DNA of 64,000 nt, taken from assembly GCF_014897675.1 (NCBI RefSeq), contig NZ_JABUXU010000001.1, positions 372,001 to 436,000 of the forward strand, in the 5' to 3' direction. The stretch comes from Advenella sp. FME57 (GTDB lineage: Bacteria; Pseudomonadota; Gammaproteobacteria; Burkholderiales; Burkholderiaceae_B). The position numbers were made by a program, and so were the translations under genes. How positions within the stretch are numbered: position 1 is the first letter of the stretch; every line of letters begins with the position of its first letter. Below, piece by piece: positions 31,605-38,510 of this stretch. The notes below the pieces were generated by a model. The model was not told the origin of the DNA. It did not search any database and saw only the letters and a program-made list of their open reading frames with translations.

Positions 31605-31859
31605 TTAATCGTCCAGTTCGGTTTGCCTGGAAAACAGCGATAGATTATTACCGCTGTTGGCCATGAAAAAACTAAGTGTACTGGAGAAGGCGGCGGTCAG
31701 CCAGAAGAGGAAAAAACCGGCTGCATAGGCCAGTTCACTTGATATGCGGATGTGCCCGAACAAGGGAATATCCCGGGGATCAACCAATGCAAATACCACC
31801 CCGCTGGCAAATCCAGCAGCAAGAAACGACGGCCAAAATATCCACATAACAGTACGCAT
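31605..31859 (-). CDS. small two-segment membrane protein of the cbb3 cluster (hypothetical)
   Basis: An 84-residue protein with two hydrophobic segments (MWIFWPSFLAAGFASGVVFALV, residues about 5-26, and ELAYAAGFFLFWLTAAFSSTLSFFM, about 43-67). The ATG at 31859 has GGGAG seven bases upstream and begins two bases after the fixH-like stop, so it belongs to the cco operon as its last gene. I do not recognise a family. Placement suggests a role in cbb3 oxidase assembly or stability, but that is inference. Confidence 0.75.
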   Translation of the reverse strand: MRTVMWIFWPSFLAAGFASGVVFALVDPRDIPLFGHIRISSELAYAAGFFLFWLTAAFSSTLSFFMANSGNNLSLFSRQTELDD

Positions 31860-31861
31860 GA

Positions 31862-32095
31862 TCACTCCCGCTTGACGTTGCTGCGGGCTACCGGAACCAA
31901 CGGCCCGGTCCCTTCGCGAATCACCACCAGTCCCTGCTTGCGGGCATCCAGTCGCACATCGCGGTCGGGATTATTCTGAAACGCCAGGACAATGGTAATC
32001 ACGCAACCTATAATGGCCAAAAAGGGACCGGCCATCAGTAGCCACGGCCAAGGCTCCCTATACCACGGTCCGCTATCTCGTTCCTGCTGTTGCAT
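31862..32095 (-). CDS. fixH: short FixH/CcoH-like protein
   Basis: A 77-residue membrane protein. The N-terminal part (WYREPWPWLLMAGPFLAIIGCVITIVLA) matches the single membrane segment of FixH/CcoH, which associates with cbb3 oxidase during assembly, but the roughly 80-residue periplasmic domain of longer FixH proteins is missing and replaced by a short basic tail (DARKQGLVVIREG). Start ATG at 32095 has AAGGAG seven bases upstream; a TTG further upstream is less likely. It sits between ccoG and a small membrane gene. A minimal FixH is possible, as is a diverged CcoH-type protein. Confidence 0.7.
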   Translation of the reverse strand: MQQQERDSGPWYREPWPWLLMAGPFLAIIGCVITIVLAFQNNPDRDVRLDARKQGLVVIREGTGPLVPVARSNVKRE

Positions 32096-32109
32096 CCTTA
32101 TGCTCCTTG

Positions 32110-33606
32110 TCAATTAGGGACAAAAAAAGTTGTATCTTGTTGAGCCGATAACGTGCCTTCGGTCTTATCCGTGTTTTCAATATGCAGGGTCAATGGATGC
32201 AATCCCCTGGCCGAGTCCTGTACCGGTACGCGAATGACCATGGGCACCCATTGATTGGAAAAAGCCGGCACGTCGATTTGTTGCCCACCCTCTTCTCCGA
32301 CCAATACAGTCACTTGCGGGATATCACTGGAAGTGGCTTTGAGGACAAATTTCTGATCTTTTTCCGACATATTGATGACCTGAATGCGATAGATATTCTC
32401 GATCATTCCACCCGGTATCTCCCGTCCGAGCACGCCACGATCCCGTACGATATCGACCCTTAACGGCGAACGCAGCGAGAGCGAAACCAGCAAGCCGATA
32501 ATGAAGATGCTCAGCAACGCGATGTAAACATAAATGCGGGGCTTGAACAAACGCTTGCGGGCCTGTTTCCTGTCGAGCCTATCGAGCATGCCGCTTTCGG
32601 ATGTATAGCGGATCAACCCGCGCGGATAATTCATTTTGTCCATCACCTGATCACAGGCGTCGATACAGGCGCCGCAGCCTATGCACATATACTGCAGACC
32701 GTCTCTGATGTCGATTCCGGTCGGACAGACCTGCACACAGATCGTACAGTCAACGCAATCGCCCAGGCCTGCCTGGCTGGGAATGATTTTCTTGGAGCGA
32801 CGACCCCGCGGTTCGCCGCGAATCCGGTCATAGGTCACGACAAACGTGTCCTTGTCGACCATCACGCTTTGAAAGCGGGCATAGGGGCACATATATTTAC
32901 AGACGGACTCCCGCATAAAACCGGCGTTGCCCCAGGTTGCAAAGGAATAAAAGATCATCCAGAACCACTGCCAGAAGCTGAGTTCGAAATGCAGGAGCTC
33001 AACGCCCAGCTCCCGAATGGGCGAGAAATAGCCAATGAAAGTCGAGCCGGTCCACCAGGCCACCGCTATCCATAAAAAATGCTTGGCGGCTTTTACCCTG
33101 AACTTGCGCCAGCTCATTGGAGACTCATCGAGCCTGATACGGGCAACGCGGTCACCTTCGATCTTGCGCTCTATCCACATGAAAATTTCGGTATAGACCG
33201 TTTGCGGACAGGCATATCCACAAAACAGCCGGCCGGCAAGCGCTGTAAACAGAAAAAGCCCATAGGCCGAAATGATCAGGATAATTGCCAGATAGAACAC
33301 ATCCTGCGGCCAGAGCACAATCCCAAAGATATAGAACTTGCGCTCTGCCAGATCGAACAACACCGCCTGGCGTCCATTCCATTGAAGCCAGGGCAAACCA
33401 TAGAAAACCGCCTGCGTGGCAAGCACCAGAATAATCCGCCATTTGGCAAACACGCCGTTCACGGAGCGTGGATATATTTTTGCGCGGATCTCCTCGACCT
33501 GCATACTGCTGTCGTCGGCAGAGACAGCCCGGGCCGGGACCAATCTTGGTGGTTGCCAGGCAGGCTCATCCTGATTGGCAGACTGCTCTGGTTGCTTATC
33601 AGACAT
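32110..33606 (-). CDS. ccoG: cbb3 oxidase accessory protein CcoG (FixG/RdxA)
   Basis: A 498-residue membrane iron-sulfur protein used in copper delivery to cbb3 oxidase (Cu2+ reduction). N-terminal membrane segments include the CGYACPQTVYTEIFMWIER block. There are two 4Fe-4S ferredoxin motifs (CVDCTICVQVCPTGIDIRDG, then CIGCGACIDACDQVMDKM, residues about 265-310), one more membrane segment (VYIALLSIFIIGLLVSLSL) and a C-terminal periplasmic Ig-like domain. Located immediately after ccoP in ccoNOQP-G order. Confidence 0.96.
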   Translation of the reverse strand: MSDKQPEQSANQDEPAWQPPRLVPARAVSADDSSMQVEEIRAKIYPRSVNGVFAKWRIILVLATQAVFYGLPWLQWNGRQAVLFDLAERKFYIFGIVLWPQDVFYLAIILIISAYGLFLFTALAGRLFCGYACPQTVYTEIFMWIERKIEGDRVARIRLDESPMSWRKFRVKAAKHFLWIAVAWWTGSTFIGYFSPIRELGVELLHFELSFWQWFWMIFYSFATWGNAGFMRESVCKYMCPYARFQSVMVDKDTFVVTYDRIRGEPRGRRSKKIIPSQAGLGDCVDCTICVQVCPTGIDIRDGLQYMCIGCGACIDACDQVMDKMNYPRGLIRYTSESGMLDRLDRKQARKRLFKPRIYVYIALLSIFIIGLLVSLSLRSPLRVDIVRDRGVLGREIPGGMIENIYRIQVINMSEKDQKFVLKATSSDIPQVTVLVGEEGGQQIDVPAFSNQWVPMVIRVPVQDSARGLHPLTLHIENTDKTEGTLSAQQDTTFFVPN

Positions 33607-33630: not shown

Positions 33631-34533
33631 TTATTTGTTGGATAAGCCCCAAACATATGCGGCCAGAATACGGATCTGATCTTCAGACAAAATATGTTTC
33701 TGTGCCGGCATCACACCCTGGCGCCCGTGCAGAATCGTATTGACAATGGTCTCCCGGGAGCTGCCGCCGAGCCAGATCGCATCGGTCAGGTTGGGCGCAC
33801 CCAACGCCTGGTTTCCCTTGGCATCCATGCCATGACAGGCGAAACATACCTTTTTGTACCCTGCCTGCCCGGCGGCCAGCAGCGTCGGATCACTGGCCAG
33901 ACCGGAAAGAGAACGCACATAGTTGGCAATTTCATTGGCCTCTGAGGGTGTAATGGCCGCAGCAAGGGGCGCCATTACACCATGACGACCTTCTGTGATG
34001 GATTTGACAATCACCTCGGGTGTGCCACCGTAGAGCCAGTCGCTGTCGGCCAGATTGGGAAAGTTGGGCGCGCCTTTGGCATCAGAACCATGACATTGCG
34101 CACAGTTGTTCAGAAAGAGCCGCTTGCCGATGGCATTTGCCTCGGGATTGGCCGCGAGTTCCTGAACAGATAAGGCTGAAAATTTGTCAAATAATGGTTT
34201 GATTTGCGCCGCCTGTTCCTCGCGCTCGGCGACAACCTGCTTGGCAGAGGTAAATCCGAGCAGGCCTGGATAGGAACCGAGCGCCGGATACAACAACATG
34301 ATTCCCAGTGCGATCACGCAAAGCCCCAGATACATAACCGTCCACCAGCGCGGAACGGGATTATTGAGTTCGCGCAGGTCTTCGTCCCAGACATGGCCCG
34401 TATCTTCGACCTGCGGCGTTGCGCTCTTGAGCCATCGACGCTGGGTAAACAGCAGCCACACGCACCATGCTACCCCAGCCAAAGACACGATGGCAATGTA
34501 ATAACTCCAAGAATTACTGAAAAAATCACTCAT
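33631..34533 (-). CDS. ccoP: cbb3 oxidase diheme subunit III
   Basis: A 300-residue membrane-anchored diheme cytochrome c that passes electrons to CcoO/CcoN. Two membrane segments (about residues 10-30 and 63-85) are followed by two cytochrome c domains with heme motifs CAQCH (near 142) and CFACH (near 232) and axial Met regions (HGVMAPL and QGVMPAQ). Its ATG overlaps the ccoQ stop (ATGA). Confidence 0.97.
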   Translation of the reverse strand: MSDFFSNSWSYYIAIVSLAGVAWCVWLLFTQRRWLKSATPQVEDTGHVWDEDLRELNNPVPRWWTVMYLGLCVIALGIMLLYPALGSYPGLLGFTSAKQVVAEREEQAAQIKPLFDKFSALSVQELAANPEANAIGKRLFLNNCAQCHGSDAKGAPNFPNLADSDWLYGGTPEVIVKSITEGRHGVMAPLAAAITPSEANEIANYVRSLSGLASDPTLLAAGQAGYKKVCFACHGMDAKGNQALGAPNLTDAIWLGGSSRETIVNTILHGRQGVMPAQKHILSEDQIRILAAYVWGLSNK

Positions 34534-34700
34534 TTTTTATACCCTTCACCACGAGTTGTCGTTGCTTCGTCAGGGACGGCAAACGGCAGATGCGCTGCCT
34601 GTTCGTTATCACTCACACGATGCCTGGACCAGGCCCAGGCAATGATTCCGAAAAACGTCATAATGGATACGATGGTCATGATCCCGATTACGATGTCCAT
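34530..34700 (-). CDS. ccoQ: cbb3 oxidase small subunit CcoQ
   Basis: A 56-residue single-pass protein with one hydrophobic segment (IGIMTIVSIMTFFGIIAWAW, residues about 5-24) and a hydrophilic tail (FAVPDEATTTRGEGYKK), as in CcoQ/FixQ, which stabilises the oxidase. The position between ccoO and ccoP, with stop overlapping the ccoP start, makes the assignment firm despite its size. Confidence 0.93.
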   Translation of the reverse strand: MDIVIGIMTIVSIMTFFGIIAWAWSRHRVSDNEQAAHLPFAVPDEATTTRGEGYKK

Positions 34701-34723: not shown

Positions 34724-35383
34724 CTAGTTGGACGCTGTTGCGTCTTGCTCACGCATTGCAGCCAGGTATCCCACGCCCAGGCTTTGCAGATAGGCAATAA
34801 TGGCGTCCTCTTCGGTTTTGCCCTTGAGCGCGGCCGGTGCGTCGTTAATTTGTTGATCGGTATACGGCACGCCCAGGGTACGCAATGCCTTCATGCGCGC
34901 CTGAATATTTTCATTGGACACATCCTTGTTCTGCAGCCAGTAGTAGCCCGGCATATTGGATTCCTTCACCACGTCACGCGGGTTGCGCAAGTGGATACGG
35001 TGCCATTCATCCGAGTAGCGTCCGCCAACCCGGGCAAGATCGGGTCCGGTACGTTTGGACCCCCACAGAAACGGATGGTCATAAACGAACTCGCCGGCTA
35101 CCGAATAAGGGCCGTAGCGGGACACCTCGGACTGCAGCGTCCGGATCTGCTGAGAATGGCAGCCGACACAGCCTTCCTTGATGTAGACGTCCCGACCGAT
35201 GATCTGCAGTGCCTGCAGGGGCTCAACACCGGGCGCCGCCTTGGTGGTGTAATGCTGGAAAAACAGTGGCACGATTTGCACCAGACCGGCAACGGCAACG
35301 ACGAGGATCGAAAAGATAATCAGAAGCCCGACGTTTTTTTCCAGTGTTTCATGGGTAAACAAACGCTTTTTTTGATTCGTCAT
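34724..35383 (-). CDS. ccoO: cbb3 oxidase monoheme subunit II
   Basis: A 219-residue membrane-anchored cytochrome c subunit. The N-terminal anchor ([21 protein letters not shown]) is followed by a periplasmic heme domain with the motif [13 protein letters not shown] near residue 70 and an axial Met in SNMPGYYWL. The start at 35383 has an AAGAGA Shine-Dalgarno; the upstream extension lies within the end of ccoN. Ten bases after ccoN, same operon. Confidence 0.97.
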
Positions 35384-35393
35384 GATAAATCTC

Positions 35394-36866
35394 TTAAACA
35401 GCAGTAGTGGGTTGTGCAACGCGGGCATCATGGCCGACCAATTCAGGTACTTGCGGATTGACACCCTTGAGTCCCTTGATGGTCATGATCATGTTGTAGA
35501 ACATCACCAACACGCCACTGAGGAAACACATCCCGCCTACGATGCGGATGATGTACAGCACATATTTAGATGCCAGCGCCTGAATAAAAGCATAGGTCAA
35601 CGTACCGTCCGCTTCTGTTGAACGCCACATCAGCCCTTCCATCACGCCGGCAATCCACATGGATGCGATATACAGCACCACGCCGATGGTAGCCATCCAG
35701 AAATGAGCCTCGATCAAGGATTTGCTATACATAGATTCGCGTCCATACAGGCGGGGAATCATGTAATACAAGCTACCAAAGGTGATCATGGCGACCCAGC
35801 CCAGCGCACCGGAGTGGACGTGCGCGACAGTCCATTCCGTGTAGTGAGAAAGCGCATTCACAGTCCGGATGGACATCATGGAGCCTTCAAAAGTAGACAT
35901 GCCGTAGAACGAGAGCGCCACCACCAGAAACTTCAGGATAGGATCGGTGCGCAGCTTGTGCCACGCGCCGGACATGGTCATGATGCCGTTGATCATGCCG
36001 CCCCAGGAAGGCGCCAGCAGGATCAGGGAGAAAGCCATACCCAGGCTTTGGGTCCAGTCAGGCAATGAGGTATACAGCAGATGGTGCGGACCGGCCCACA
36101 TATAGGTAAAGGCCAGCGCCCAGAAGTGAACAATGGACAGACGATAGGAATAGATCGGGCGATTGGCCTGTTTTGGCACGAAGTAGTACATCATGCCCAG
36201 GAAACTGGTGGTAAGGAAAAAGCCCACCGCGTTGTGACCGTACCACCATTGCACCATGGCATCCTGCGCACCGGCATAGGCAGAATAAGAGTTGAACCAG
36301 CTATAGGGCAACTCGATGTTGTTGAAGATATGCAGGATAGCGATTGTCAGGATGAATGAACCGTAGAACCAGTTGGCCACATAAATGTGTTTCATCTTGC
36401 GTTTGGCCACCGTCCCGAAAAAGACGATCGCGTAGGCGACCCAGACCAGCGTAATCAGAATATCGATAGGCCATTCAAGCTCGGCATATTCTTTGCTGGT
36501 TGTGTAGCCGGCCGGCAGCGTGATCGCAGCAGCCACAATGACCAGTTGCCAACCCCAGAAAGTGAACGAAGCCAGTGGTCCACAGAACAGGCGCGTCTGA
36601 CAGGTACGCTGAACGACATAATAGGAAGTAGCAAACAGCGCACTACCGCCAAAGGCAAAAATAACTGCATTGGTATGCAGCGGGCGCAGGCGACCATAAC
36701 TGAGCCAGTCTACGACGTTCAGTTCCGGCCAGACCAGTTGTGCTGCAATGTAGACACCCACAAACATGCCGACAATTCCCCACACAACGGTCATGATGGT
36801 GAACTGGCGCACGACTGTGTAATTGAAGATCTCCGCGTCTGCGGAGCGCGCATTCTGGACACGCAT
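35394..36866 (-). CDS. ccoN: cbb3 oxidase catalytic subunit I
   Basis: The 490-residue heme-copper catalytic subunit with 12 membrane segments. It reduces oxygen at high affinity and pumps protons. Heme and Cu-B ligands are visible: His in [14 protein letters not shown] (near residue 63), the [12 protein letters not shown] block with the active-site His-Tyr region (near 210), [10 protein letters not shown] (two Cu-B His, near 260) and [11 protein letters not shown] (near 345). First gene of ccoNOQP-G. AGGGG Shine-Dalgarno; a perfect FNR box lies 57 bases upstream. Confidence 0.98.
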
Positions 36867-36896: not shown

Positions 36897-36937
36897 ATCT
36901 TAAATAGATCACAGCGCAGCGATTTGATAAATATCAA
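36897..36937 (-). promoter_or_regulatory. FNR-activated ccoN promoter
   Basis: TTGATAAATATCAA (36924-36937) is a perfect FNR box. It is correctly placed for a class II promoter: a -10 candidate TAAGAT lies at 36902-36897, giving a start near 36889 with the box centred about -41.5 and a 23-base leader. Confidence 0.92.
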
Positions 36938-37250: not shown

Positions 37251-37472
37251 CTATCGCATTGGCAACGACGATTTGGCAGACGGCACGCGCGTCGCTTCAC
37301 TGCCCCACTCACTATCGGGCAGCGCGATTGCAGCATCTTCGTCCTGTAATATCACGCTTGCGTTTTCGTCACTGTCTTCAAATTGACCCGACATCACCGC
37401 CCAGTAAAGTACGCCGCCAATGCTCATGACAAACAGAAAAGCCAGGAAGACCAAGAGAAAGAATACGTCCAT
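37251..37472 (-). CDS. ccoS: cbb3 oxidase maturation protein CcoS
   Basis: A 73-residue single-pass protein: membrane segment (FFLLVFLAFLFVMSIGGVLYWAVMSGQF, residues about 4-31) followed by the CcoS motif GQFEDSDENASVILQDED. CcoS is needed for cofactor insertion into cbb3 oxidase. It follows the CcoI-like gene by 8 bases. The C-terminal tail is longer than in many CcoS proteins. Confidence 0.93.
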   Translation of the reverse strand: MDVFFLLVFLAFLFVMSIGGVLYWAVMSGQFEDSDENASVILQDEDAAIALPDSEWGSEATRVPSAKSSLPMR

Positions 37473-37480
37473 GGCAAGTA

Positions 37481-38461
37481 CTAGGCCGACGACGAGTTGA
37501 TCGCGACCGTGCCGGCCCCGACAGGCTTGCCAACCGTATAGTTTTTATAAAAATGCCAGGCATAAAACGCGACTGCCATCGACGACACCAGCATGGTTAT
37601 GGCAGCAAGCCATGGCTGCACCAGGCCAACCATGGCAAATGGAATCATAAGCAGATGCCACAACAATGAACCGTAAAGAGAGCGGCGGGCAACGCGGACG
37701 GTCTGCGCACGCAAGGCGATAAGTGCCTTCTGACTGAGTGGTGGACTGCCAAGAACAATGGCGCGTGCCGCTGCCTGTGCAGAGGGTACCGCCATGGCCA
37801 TGGCGCAAGGACAACTCATGACAAACAGCGCAACCAGCACCGACAGGGCGTGGTCCGAATCAATGAACATGTACCAGATGAGCGCGGACACAATGGAGAG
37901 CGCAATTTGTATACTTACGAAGTACAGCCCGACCCGGTCGGCCGTCTTGGCCAGCAGCCTGGACTCCTGATCGAAGCGCTGATCAACCGCAGCCCCAGCC
38001 GACTGCCTGGCGGCAAGCGCCAGATAGCGCGCCGTAAGCACGAAGGCAACGAACATGGCAATGGATTCGAAATAGACTTCGCCGGATTGGCGAAAGGTCG
38101 CGATAGCACTGGGAATAAAGGCCACCACAATGCCCAGGCCAATGGGCCAGTTCATGGACTGCTGATGGGTGTCATGCGGGTCCCGGCCGACAAAGCCACG
38201 CCAGATAGGCCAGGCGCAATAAAGCAGCACCGGCACGGTCAGCAGCAGGCTGCACCAGTTCATGACAATAATGGCCGTGTCCAGCGTATCGACTGTTTCT
38301 GCATCAACGTAGCTGGCACGAAGATAACCCGGGAAGGCGAACATCATGACCTGCATCATGACCAGCCAGGCCAAACCAAGCCGGGCAAGCATGTGTCTGC
38401 GCTGCAGGCGTTCCTGAGCGCCCAGGTCGCTGGGGATCGAGAAAATGGAGGCGGGTTTCAT
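37481..38461 (-). CDS. ccoI: CcoI-like P1B-ATPase remnant: membrane core only, no ATPase domains
   Basis: Resembles the copper ATPase CcoI/FixI of cbb3 clusters, but with 326 residues it is less than half the usual 700-800. The eight membrane segments are all there, including the metal-site motif SCPCAMAMAVPSA (CPC at 217-219) and a MLVSS block in the last segment. Missing are the N-terminal metal-binding domain, the A-domain (TGE) between segments 4 and 5 (only about 25 residues remain), and the whole P/N region (DKTGT, GDG) after CPC (about 25 residues remain). The usual YN of segment 7 is WH. The frame is intact, so this is not simple decay. It cannot hydrolyse ATP. A longer start (GTG-free ATG at 38473) overlaps a -10 candidate. 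FNR box upstream; ccoS follows. Confidence 0.85.
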   Translation of the reverse strand: MKPASIFSIPSDLGAQERLQRRHMLARLGLAWLVMMQVMMFAFPGYLRASYVDAETVDTLDTAIIVMNWCSLLLTVPVLLYCAWPIWRGFVGRDPHDTHQQSMNWPIGLGIVVAFIPSAIATFRQSGEVYFESIAMFVAFVLTARYLALAARQSAGAAVDQRFDQESRLLAKTADRVGLYFVSIQIALSIVSALIWYMFIDSDHALSVLVALFVMSCPCAMAMAVPSAQAAARAIVLGSPPLSQKALIALRAQTVRVARRSLYGSLLWHLLMIPFAMVGLVQPWLAAITMLVSSMAVAFYAWHFYKNYTVGKPVGAGTVAINSSSA

Positions 38462-38471
38462 ACCACCGATC

Positions 38472-38510
38472 ATAGTATCGATCGGAGAAAGCGATCTTGA
38501 TCTATATCAA
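38472..38510 (-). promoter_or_regulatory. FNR-activated promoter of the ccoI-like gene
   Basis: TTGATCTATATCAA (38497-38510) is a second perfect FNR box. A -10 candidate TACTAT lies at 38477-38472. Class II spacing puts the start of transcription near 38462-38465, directly at the ATG at 38461. Confidence 0.88.

Follow-up and report, generated by a model that had tools for sequence, protein, structure and literature searches.

A CcoI-type copper ATPase without its catalytic domains heads the cbb3 oxidase operon in much of the Alcaligenaceae

The cbb3 operon of Advenella sp. FME57 begins with a gene for a CcoI-like copper P-type ATPase that consists of the membrane core and lacks the cytosolic modules of the pump. 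Across relatives, this short form occupies the orthologous operon position, has a single origin, is under purifying selection and keeps the CPC and MxxSS motifs without exception. Modelling and family comparison further indicate a P1B membrane fold, a clade-wide replacement of Asn by His at the second metal site and near-complete co-occurrence with ccoN. The analysis suggests that, in much of the Alcaligenaceae, what was once a pump has taken on ATP-free copper handling. The reading we favour, and hold to be moderately probable, is that the protein is a CcoI orthologue whose three cytosolic modules were lost once, in an ancestor within the Alcaligenaceae, and which has since served, without ATP, as a Cu(I)-binding membrane hub in the maturation of CuB in CcoN.

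The window analysed is a 64,000-nucleotide stretch of this genome. Its minus strand carries an open reading frame of 330 aa (37481-38473) with zero internal stops. A second ATG at 38461 is the start position in many homologues of the family alignment; because many homologues begin there and the FNR box then lies at -49, as in relatives, the gene probably spans 37481-38461 and encodes 326 aa. Residue numbers below follow the 330-aa frame. The gene and its putative metal-site motifs are:

37481..38461, minus strand: CcoI lacking the catalytic domains, 326 aa from the likely start (reading frame, family alignment, AlphaFold2 and fold comparison)
37805..37813, minus strand: CPC, residues 221-223 in TM6 (invariant in 101/101 short and 33/33 full-length proteins)
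37655..37660, minus strand: W272-H273 in TM7, in place of the Y-N of full-length CcoI (H in 101/101 versus N in 33/33; W in 94 and F in 7 versus Y in 33/33)
37580..37594, minus strand: M294-L-V-S297-S298 (MxxSS) in TM8 (M, S and S invariant in 101/101 and 33/33)

An AlphaFold2 model built with an input of 41 homologues (pLDDT 86, pTM 0.81) contains eight long membrane helices, the sixth interrupted at CPC. The original prediction of an intact frame with eight membrane segments, CPC in segment 6 and MLVSS in segment 8 was thereby confirmed, with reading frame, model and alignment in agreement. A Foldseek search with the model returned nothing at E 0.001, and its top match was LpCopA (4bbj; E 1.4e-3, probability 1.00). 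VIA-align superposed the model on LpCopA 4bbj with Z 22.1 over 271 residues (rmsd 3.8) and on ATP7B 7si7 with Z 23.5, while the highest-ranked P-type ATPase not specific for Cu reached Z 11.0. By these comparisons the predicted structure has the eight-helix P1B membrane fold.

The N-terminal metal domain, the A-domain and the P/N region were reported missing from the start, and Pfam searches, motif counts and slot lengths bear this out. Pfam matched only the tail of PF00122 (profile positions 110-174 of 181, the last third), which was also the sole family matched in 41/41 aligned short-form homologues; the N-terminal metal domains PF12156 and HMA gave no match in any of the 41 at E ≤ 0.001. 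The P1B-1 copper ATPase model TIGR01511 scored 60.8 bits, below its curated cut-off of 397. Models with curated cut-offs overlook the window's protein, one Pfam fragment alone passing its threshold. Sites and motifs were compared between 101 distinct short proteins and 33 full-length CcoI from Burkholderiales, and likeness to CcoI motifs was judged against the latter. None of the 101 short proteins contains DKTG, TGE[PSAT], GDGxN or CxxC, versus 33/33, 27/33, 33/33 and 31/33 of the full-length proteins. Median slot lengths (44 short versus 39 full-length proteins) were 20 versus 175 residues at the N-terminus (about 155 fewer), 36 versus 142 in the A-domain slot (about 106 fewer) and 42 versus 292 in the P/N slot (about 250 fewer), and the membrane lengths between anchors were kept (MA-M2 121 versus 115, M3-M4 43 versus 43, TM7-TM8 24 versus 24). 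Two short forms, in genomes G668 and G650 (L225, L226), have about 34 additional residues between TM4 and TM5, as counted on alignments.

Set against P1B-1 ATPases, the short protein has CPC in TM6 and MxxSS in TM8 (each 101/101) and lacks the phosphorylated Asp of DKTGT with the P and N domains, the A domain with TGE, and the YN of TM7. Because the catalytic residues are absent, ATP-driven Cu(I) export by the short protein itself is not expected. Set against CcoI orthologues, it shares their descent and their place beside ccoS/ccoNOQP, and it lacks the N-terminal metal domains.

Relatives were sampled in 101 genomes, 61 from the window's family and 40 from other families of the order. The short form was found in 41 of the 61 family genomes, in stop-free frames of 312-370 aa, and in 0/40 genomes of the other families. 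The chance that relatives carry a full-length gene at this place, raised along with the original prediction, applies to few of them: the 61 comprise 41 with the short form in the operon and 5 with a full-length CcoI. The genera among the named hits place the family as the Alcaligenaceae; among the matches listed (80 of 411 confirmed stretches) these are Advenella, Pelistega, Pusillimonas, Oligella, Taylorella, Paenalcaligenes, Alcaligenes, Achromobacter, Castellaniella and Brackiella. A wider search of 268 family genomes gave matches at E ≤ 1e-10 in 221 and better than 1e-100 in 179 (hand count from the table). Weaker matches only were obtained in 37 of the 268, and the 12 inspected were 11 full-length ATPases and one gene cut by a contig end (G636). 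A few of the best ~155 matches lie within longer open frames of up to 828 aa, the match itself being unbroken. Outside the family, none of the 368 other genomes of a class sample, in which the window's genome is the sole member of the family, scored alike (best 1.5e-41 versus 3.6e-150). Short frames in two genomes from other families (G390, G162) proved to be full-length genes truncated by contig ends. In the genomes sampled, homologues with CPC and without DKTGT, the class originally proposed for mapping, belong to the Alcaligenaceae (CPC 101/101, DKTG 0/101), where the short form is of long standing. One genome (G488) holds two strong matches, C19:4315-5256 and C47:24103-25041.

The short form travels with the oxidase. 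Counted over 61 related and hence not independent genomes, it occurred together with ccoN above cut-off in 40 and with a fragmented ccoN in one (G007). ccoN above cut-off without the short form was found in four genomes (G020, G021, G035, G039), each with a full-length CcoI. Neither was found in 16, including G059 (partial ccoN, full-length CcoI) and G030 (ccoN pieces). Family genomes in which a full-length CcoI adjoins cbb3 genes are G020, G021, G035, G039, G059, G554, G575, G586, G609, G611 and G612.

Since the core tree and the ccoN tree each give one short-form clade, the gene trees show a CcoI pump that was reduced once, from a full-length CcoI. With the WH columns removed, the short forms formed one clade in the core tree (SH-aLRT 100), as they did after removal of the long branches L131 and L134 (bootstrap/SH-aLRT 100/100); a first FastTree run that included the WH columns also placed all 41 in one clade, with support 0.775. 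The ccoN tree, with 43 short-form rows and ccoN of ≤ 400 aa excluded, agrees on one short-form clade (support 98). The nearest full-length CcoI in the core tree are those of G612 (L255) and G035 (L107), at 98/94. The G035 gene (L107:6570-9053) may be a relic or an import; among the other matching members of its genus, the short form predominates.

The short ccoI heads the order ccoI-S-N-O-Q-P-G-H, that is, it stands at the ccoI position, in 41/41 genomes, with gaps where ccoS falls below the BLAST cut-off (L066, L069), where ccoG does so (L070) and where contigs end early (L061, for example, in ccoP). The surrounding features in the window are:

38497..38510, minus strand: FNR box TTGATATAGATCAA, exact match (perfect at 29/41 loci versus 1/820 shuffles)
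37251..37472, minus strand: ccoS (TIGR00847, 28.9 bits versus a cut-off of 28.35)
36924..36937, minus strand: second perfect FNR box, upstream of ccoN, exact match
35394..36866, minus strand: ccoN (TIGR00780, 756.5 bits, cut-off 583.15)
34724..35389, minus strand: ccoO, start approximate (position and cross-locus homology)
34530..34700, minus strand: ccoQ (position and cross-locus homology)
33631..34533, minus strand: ccoP (position and cross-locus homology)
32110..33606, minus strand: ccoG (TIGR02745, 5e-150)
31862..32113, minus strand: short CcoH/FixH-like protein, 83 aa (PF05751 profile positions 1-38 of 150 only, 22.3 bits, under the cut-off of 23)

The names ccoO, ccoQ and ccoP are presumed ones and do not come from a family model. 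The ccoS gene starts 8 nt past the stop of the short ccoI and the box at 38497-38510 is exact, so the operon with ccoS and the perfect FNR box stand as first described. Upstream of the short ccoI, the box has one mismatch at a further 5/41 loci (the 820 controls being mononucleotide shuffles), and the miss at L068 is meaningless since just 60 bases could be scanned there. Its offset is -48 to -50 in 18/41 loci and -49 here with the start at 38461. The 64-kb window contains two perfect boxes, versus a mean of 0.07 over 100 shuffles (two in one shuffle). As the second lies directly upstream of ccoN, transcription of ccoI-ccoS and of ccoNOQP may start from separate promoters. Several further observations concern the locus. 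The CcoH/FixH-like protein is likewise short in relatives, including some family members with full-length CcoI. A hydrophobic 86-aa frame after ccoH (31605-31865) matches no Pfam family and is conserved at 33/41 loci, with a median dN/dS of 0.051. In G039 (L109), G609 (L256) and G554 (L257), the order ccoN-O-P followed by full-length CcoI represents a different cbb3 operon type. In G007 (L036), ccoN and ccoG are split across several frames and the rest of the operon is intact; these splits may be sequencing errors.

Other copper-handling proteins were surveyed in the same genomes. The window's own genome encodes three full-length P-type ATPases, two of them CopA-like (above the TIGR01511 cut-off) and one ZntA-like. 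One CopA-like protein (L141:1658-4030) has two N-terminal CPMHP-type repeats, an HMA-like CxxC domain not being evident in its sequence. The own-genome P-type search recovered these three complete ATPases and the short gene and no orphan catalytic half, and a catalytic half encoded elsewhere was rejected on that basis. A full-length CcoI elsewhere in the genome, proposed as a check along with the original prediction, was sought and found to be absent, PF12156 giving no match (G000). Among the 61 family genomes PF12156 matched only in G035, a bearer of the full-length form; this test would overlook a CcoI without PF12156. The best other match in short-form genomes was 6.9e-9 among the matches listed, versus 1.7e-12 or better for the full-length CcoI used, and on these two grounds we rejected the presence of a full-length CcoI at another place in genomes that carry the short form. 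A TIGR01511 match above cut-off was present in 28/28 short-form genomes of the 61 genomes searched with that model. Sco/SenC (PF02630) matched in 41/41 short-form genomes with 2-6 copies each, a mean of 3.7 versus 2.85 in the 20 other family genomes (G016, G056 and G059 as zero), a comparison confounded by descent.

Pairwise dN/dS, calculated with our own Nei-Gojobori script, was 0.078-0.138 for the short ccoI within Advenella (median 0.112; 15 pairs, several with dS > 1) and 0.045-0.26 within Achromobacter (median 0.134; 210 pairs). The relaxed selection that would have spoken against a retained function is not seen in either genus. In Advenella the neighbouring genes gave 0.024 for ccoN and 0.061 for ccoG (10 pairs each, the broken L036 excluded), 0.051 for ccoP, 0.068 for ccoO, 0.139 for ccoH and 0.20 for ccoS. 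By this measure, the short ccoI is clearly constrained, yet less so than most of its operon neighbours.

The residues of the membrane core point to a remodelled metal site. The entry Met, M107, is present in 101/101 short and 31/33 full-length proteins, and residue 136 is acidic in 101/101 (D 75, E 26) and 33/33. Positions 227 and 225, Leu in 30/33 full-length proteins in each case, are Met in 99/101 and 81/101 short proteins, respectively. Residue 189 is Q in 101/101 short versus L, I, V or T in the 33 full-length proteins, and further non-ligand positions, among them W36, N72 and P121, have become invariant in the short form. The E205-like site (E 92, A 9 versus E in 31/33) and the D337-like site (D 69, N 32 versus D in 28/33) are suggestive only of a relaxed cytosolic entry, and conservation showed no clear bias towards either membrane face (gain over full-length 0.119 in the cytosolic versus 0.152 in the periplasmic halves). 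CPC, YN and MxxSS are important to the binding of Cu+ by AfCopA, according to excerpts from PMC9433437. With CPC and MxxSS invariant and with His and Met gained, the putative site is not decaying and looks rebuilt with softer ligands. The retained function claimed in the original prediction therefore stands, supported by a short form in 41/61 genomes, always at the ccoI position and under purifying selection; the TM7 change from YN to [W/F]H and the Met residues beside CPC were absent from it, as were the likely start at 38461 and the age of the short form as a family trait.

In the mechanism we propose, Cu(I) would be bound between TM6, TM7 and TM8 by CPC, H273, M294/S298 and perhaps M225/M227. 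The His and extra Met would make a site fit for holding or transferring copper rather than for the release step of a pump. The membrane core would then hand Cu(I) to a Sco/SenC-type chaperone or directly to CcoN, and whatever ATP-driven export occurs would be performed by a separate CopA. Since M107 is kept in 101/101, traffic from the cytosol could still take place. CcoS and CcoG, the partners first suggested, are candidates for an interaction with the core. Excerpts from PMC8475189 on R. capsulatus support such a hub in that a CcoI CPC mutant is without cbb3 activity and is not rescued by added copper, the N-terminal metal sites are important and not essential, a CcoI-SenC fusion is functional, and CcoI acts as a hub to SenC. 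Several observations count against it. The same excerpts state that CcoI transport requires hydrolysable ATP, and R. capsulatus is described, in the portion of the literature covered, as requiring CcoI despite having CopA. Caulobacter cbb3 depends on FixI even at copper excess (excerpts from PMC12617631). B. bronchiseptica living on cco alone was not obtainable despite high ccoN transcription (excerpts from PMC11257404), which, if that species carries the short form, may reflect a weak assembly route. The short CcoI is also less constrained than most operon neighbours, and its conservation favours neither membrane face.

Different roles for the bare core have to be weighed against a hub. Without P, N and A domains it could act as a passive Cu+ channel or uniporter that carries Cu+ down its electrochemical gradient, with import favoured, and that could feed cytosolic enzymes. 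The membrane potential favours inward movement of Cu+, and the whole conserved path is kept (M107, CPC and the acidic residue 136, each 101/101); yet the occurrence of the short form is bound to the cbb3 operon and to the presence of ccoN, a permanently open Cu+ path would be costly, and the Asn-to-His change would be expected to tighten binding, not loosen it, which together make a channel unlikely. Nor does a metal-independent assembly scaffold, holding CcoN, CcoS or CcoH and carrying its copper motifs as leftovers, fit readily: the complete loss of energy coupling, the operon linkage and the newly invariant non-ligands W36, N72 and P121 would suit it, but CPC, M294, S297 and S298 are invariant in 101/101 and the site gained His and Met, and we consider it unlikely as well. 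Even less probable, in our estimate, is a membrane partner to which a complete ATPase (CopA) would dock in order to supply cbb3. A Cu-ATPase above the TIGR01511 cut-off does accompany the short form in 28/28 of the short-form genomes among the 61 searched, but hetero-oligomeric P1B pumps are not known.

Decay was considered at the level of single genomes. Split or partial matches occurred in five of the 268 family genomes (G519, G532, G650, G658, G668). Four were rejected as decay: the frames of G650 and G668 are open with long TM4-TM5 loops, G519 contains an N gap and G658 meets a contig end. In G532 (L259:3001-4976), the short ccoI is interrupted near codon 164 by an IS481-like transposase gene, and ccoN lies in several frames, so that one of the five matches inspected is a truly broken copy, an insertion with ccoN also broken. 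G532 is probably B. pertussis, whose ccoN is a pseudogene according to excerpts from PMC13038864 and PMC11257404. Joint decay of oxidase and short CcoI would be expected if both work together, and this is a single case. As a general account, a decaying remnant or assembly artefact is extremely improbable: G532 is one genome, against which stand strong matches in 179/268 genomes by hand count, dN/dS of 0.045-0.26 and open frames in 41/41. The same low dN/dS, with presence in 41/61 and 179/268 genomes, rules out a private deletion or pseudogene.

Returning to the ATP-independent hub, its broadest form holds that a single conversion, shared by most cbb3-bearing members of the family, made a primary active transporter into a device that transfers Cu(I) without ATP. 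The core alone would serve as the hub for insertion, its His/Met/Cys site having been rebuilt, and CuB would be made without a supposedly obligatory ATP step; we regard this as evenly balanced between true and false. If true, it would be a rare survival of a P-type pump core without its engine. Models of cbb3 assembly in R. capsulatus and Caulobacter centre on ATP-driven Cu(I) export by CcoI, whereas much of the Alcaligenaceae (Achromobacter, Alcaligenes, Taylorella and Advenella among the matches listed) has the gene in place without the ATPase machinery. With the short form, pumping and copper hand-over, two functions of CcoI that the usual models can hardly tell apart, become separable, and the short form is a natural minimal protein for asking how Cu(I) reaches CuB. 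Consistent with the novelty first claimed, searches of the open-access literature gave no earlier description of the short form and no account of a conserved CcoI or other P-type pump stripped of its catalytic domains.

Among known systems, the short form resembles the CcoI of R. capsulatus, FixI and CopA2, as described in excerpts from PMC8475189, in operon position, eight-helix core, CPC, MxxSS and a Met-rich first helix. It differs from them in having no PF12156, HMA, P or N domains, only the tail of PF00122, [W/F]H in place of YN and no ATP-hydrolysing residues of its own. Compared with the full-length CcoI of G612 (L255) and G035 (L107), it has the same ccoS/N/O/Q/P/G/H neighbours (ccoS was not seen in L255), whereas those proteins have all of the PF12156, HMA, E1-E2_ATPase and Hydrolase domains and keep YN. 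With CopA (LpCopA 3rfu/4bbj, AfCopA 7r0g) it shares the membrane fold (Z 19.7-22.1), CPC, MxxSS and the entry Met, and with LpCopA an acidic residue at the position of E189, which we take to be the exit site. CopA, in contrast, is a complete ATPase with YN, to which the short form is 23-26% identical in VIA alignments.
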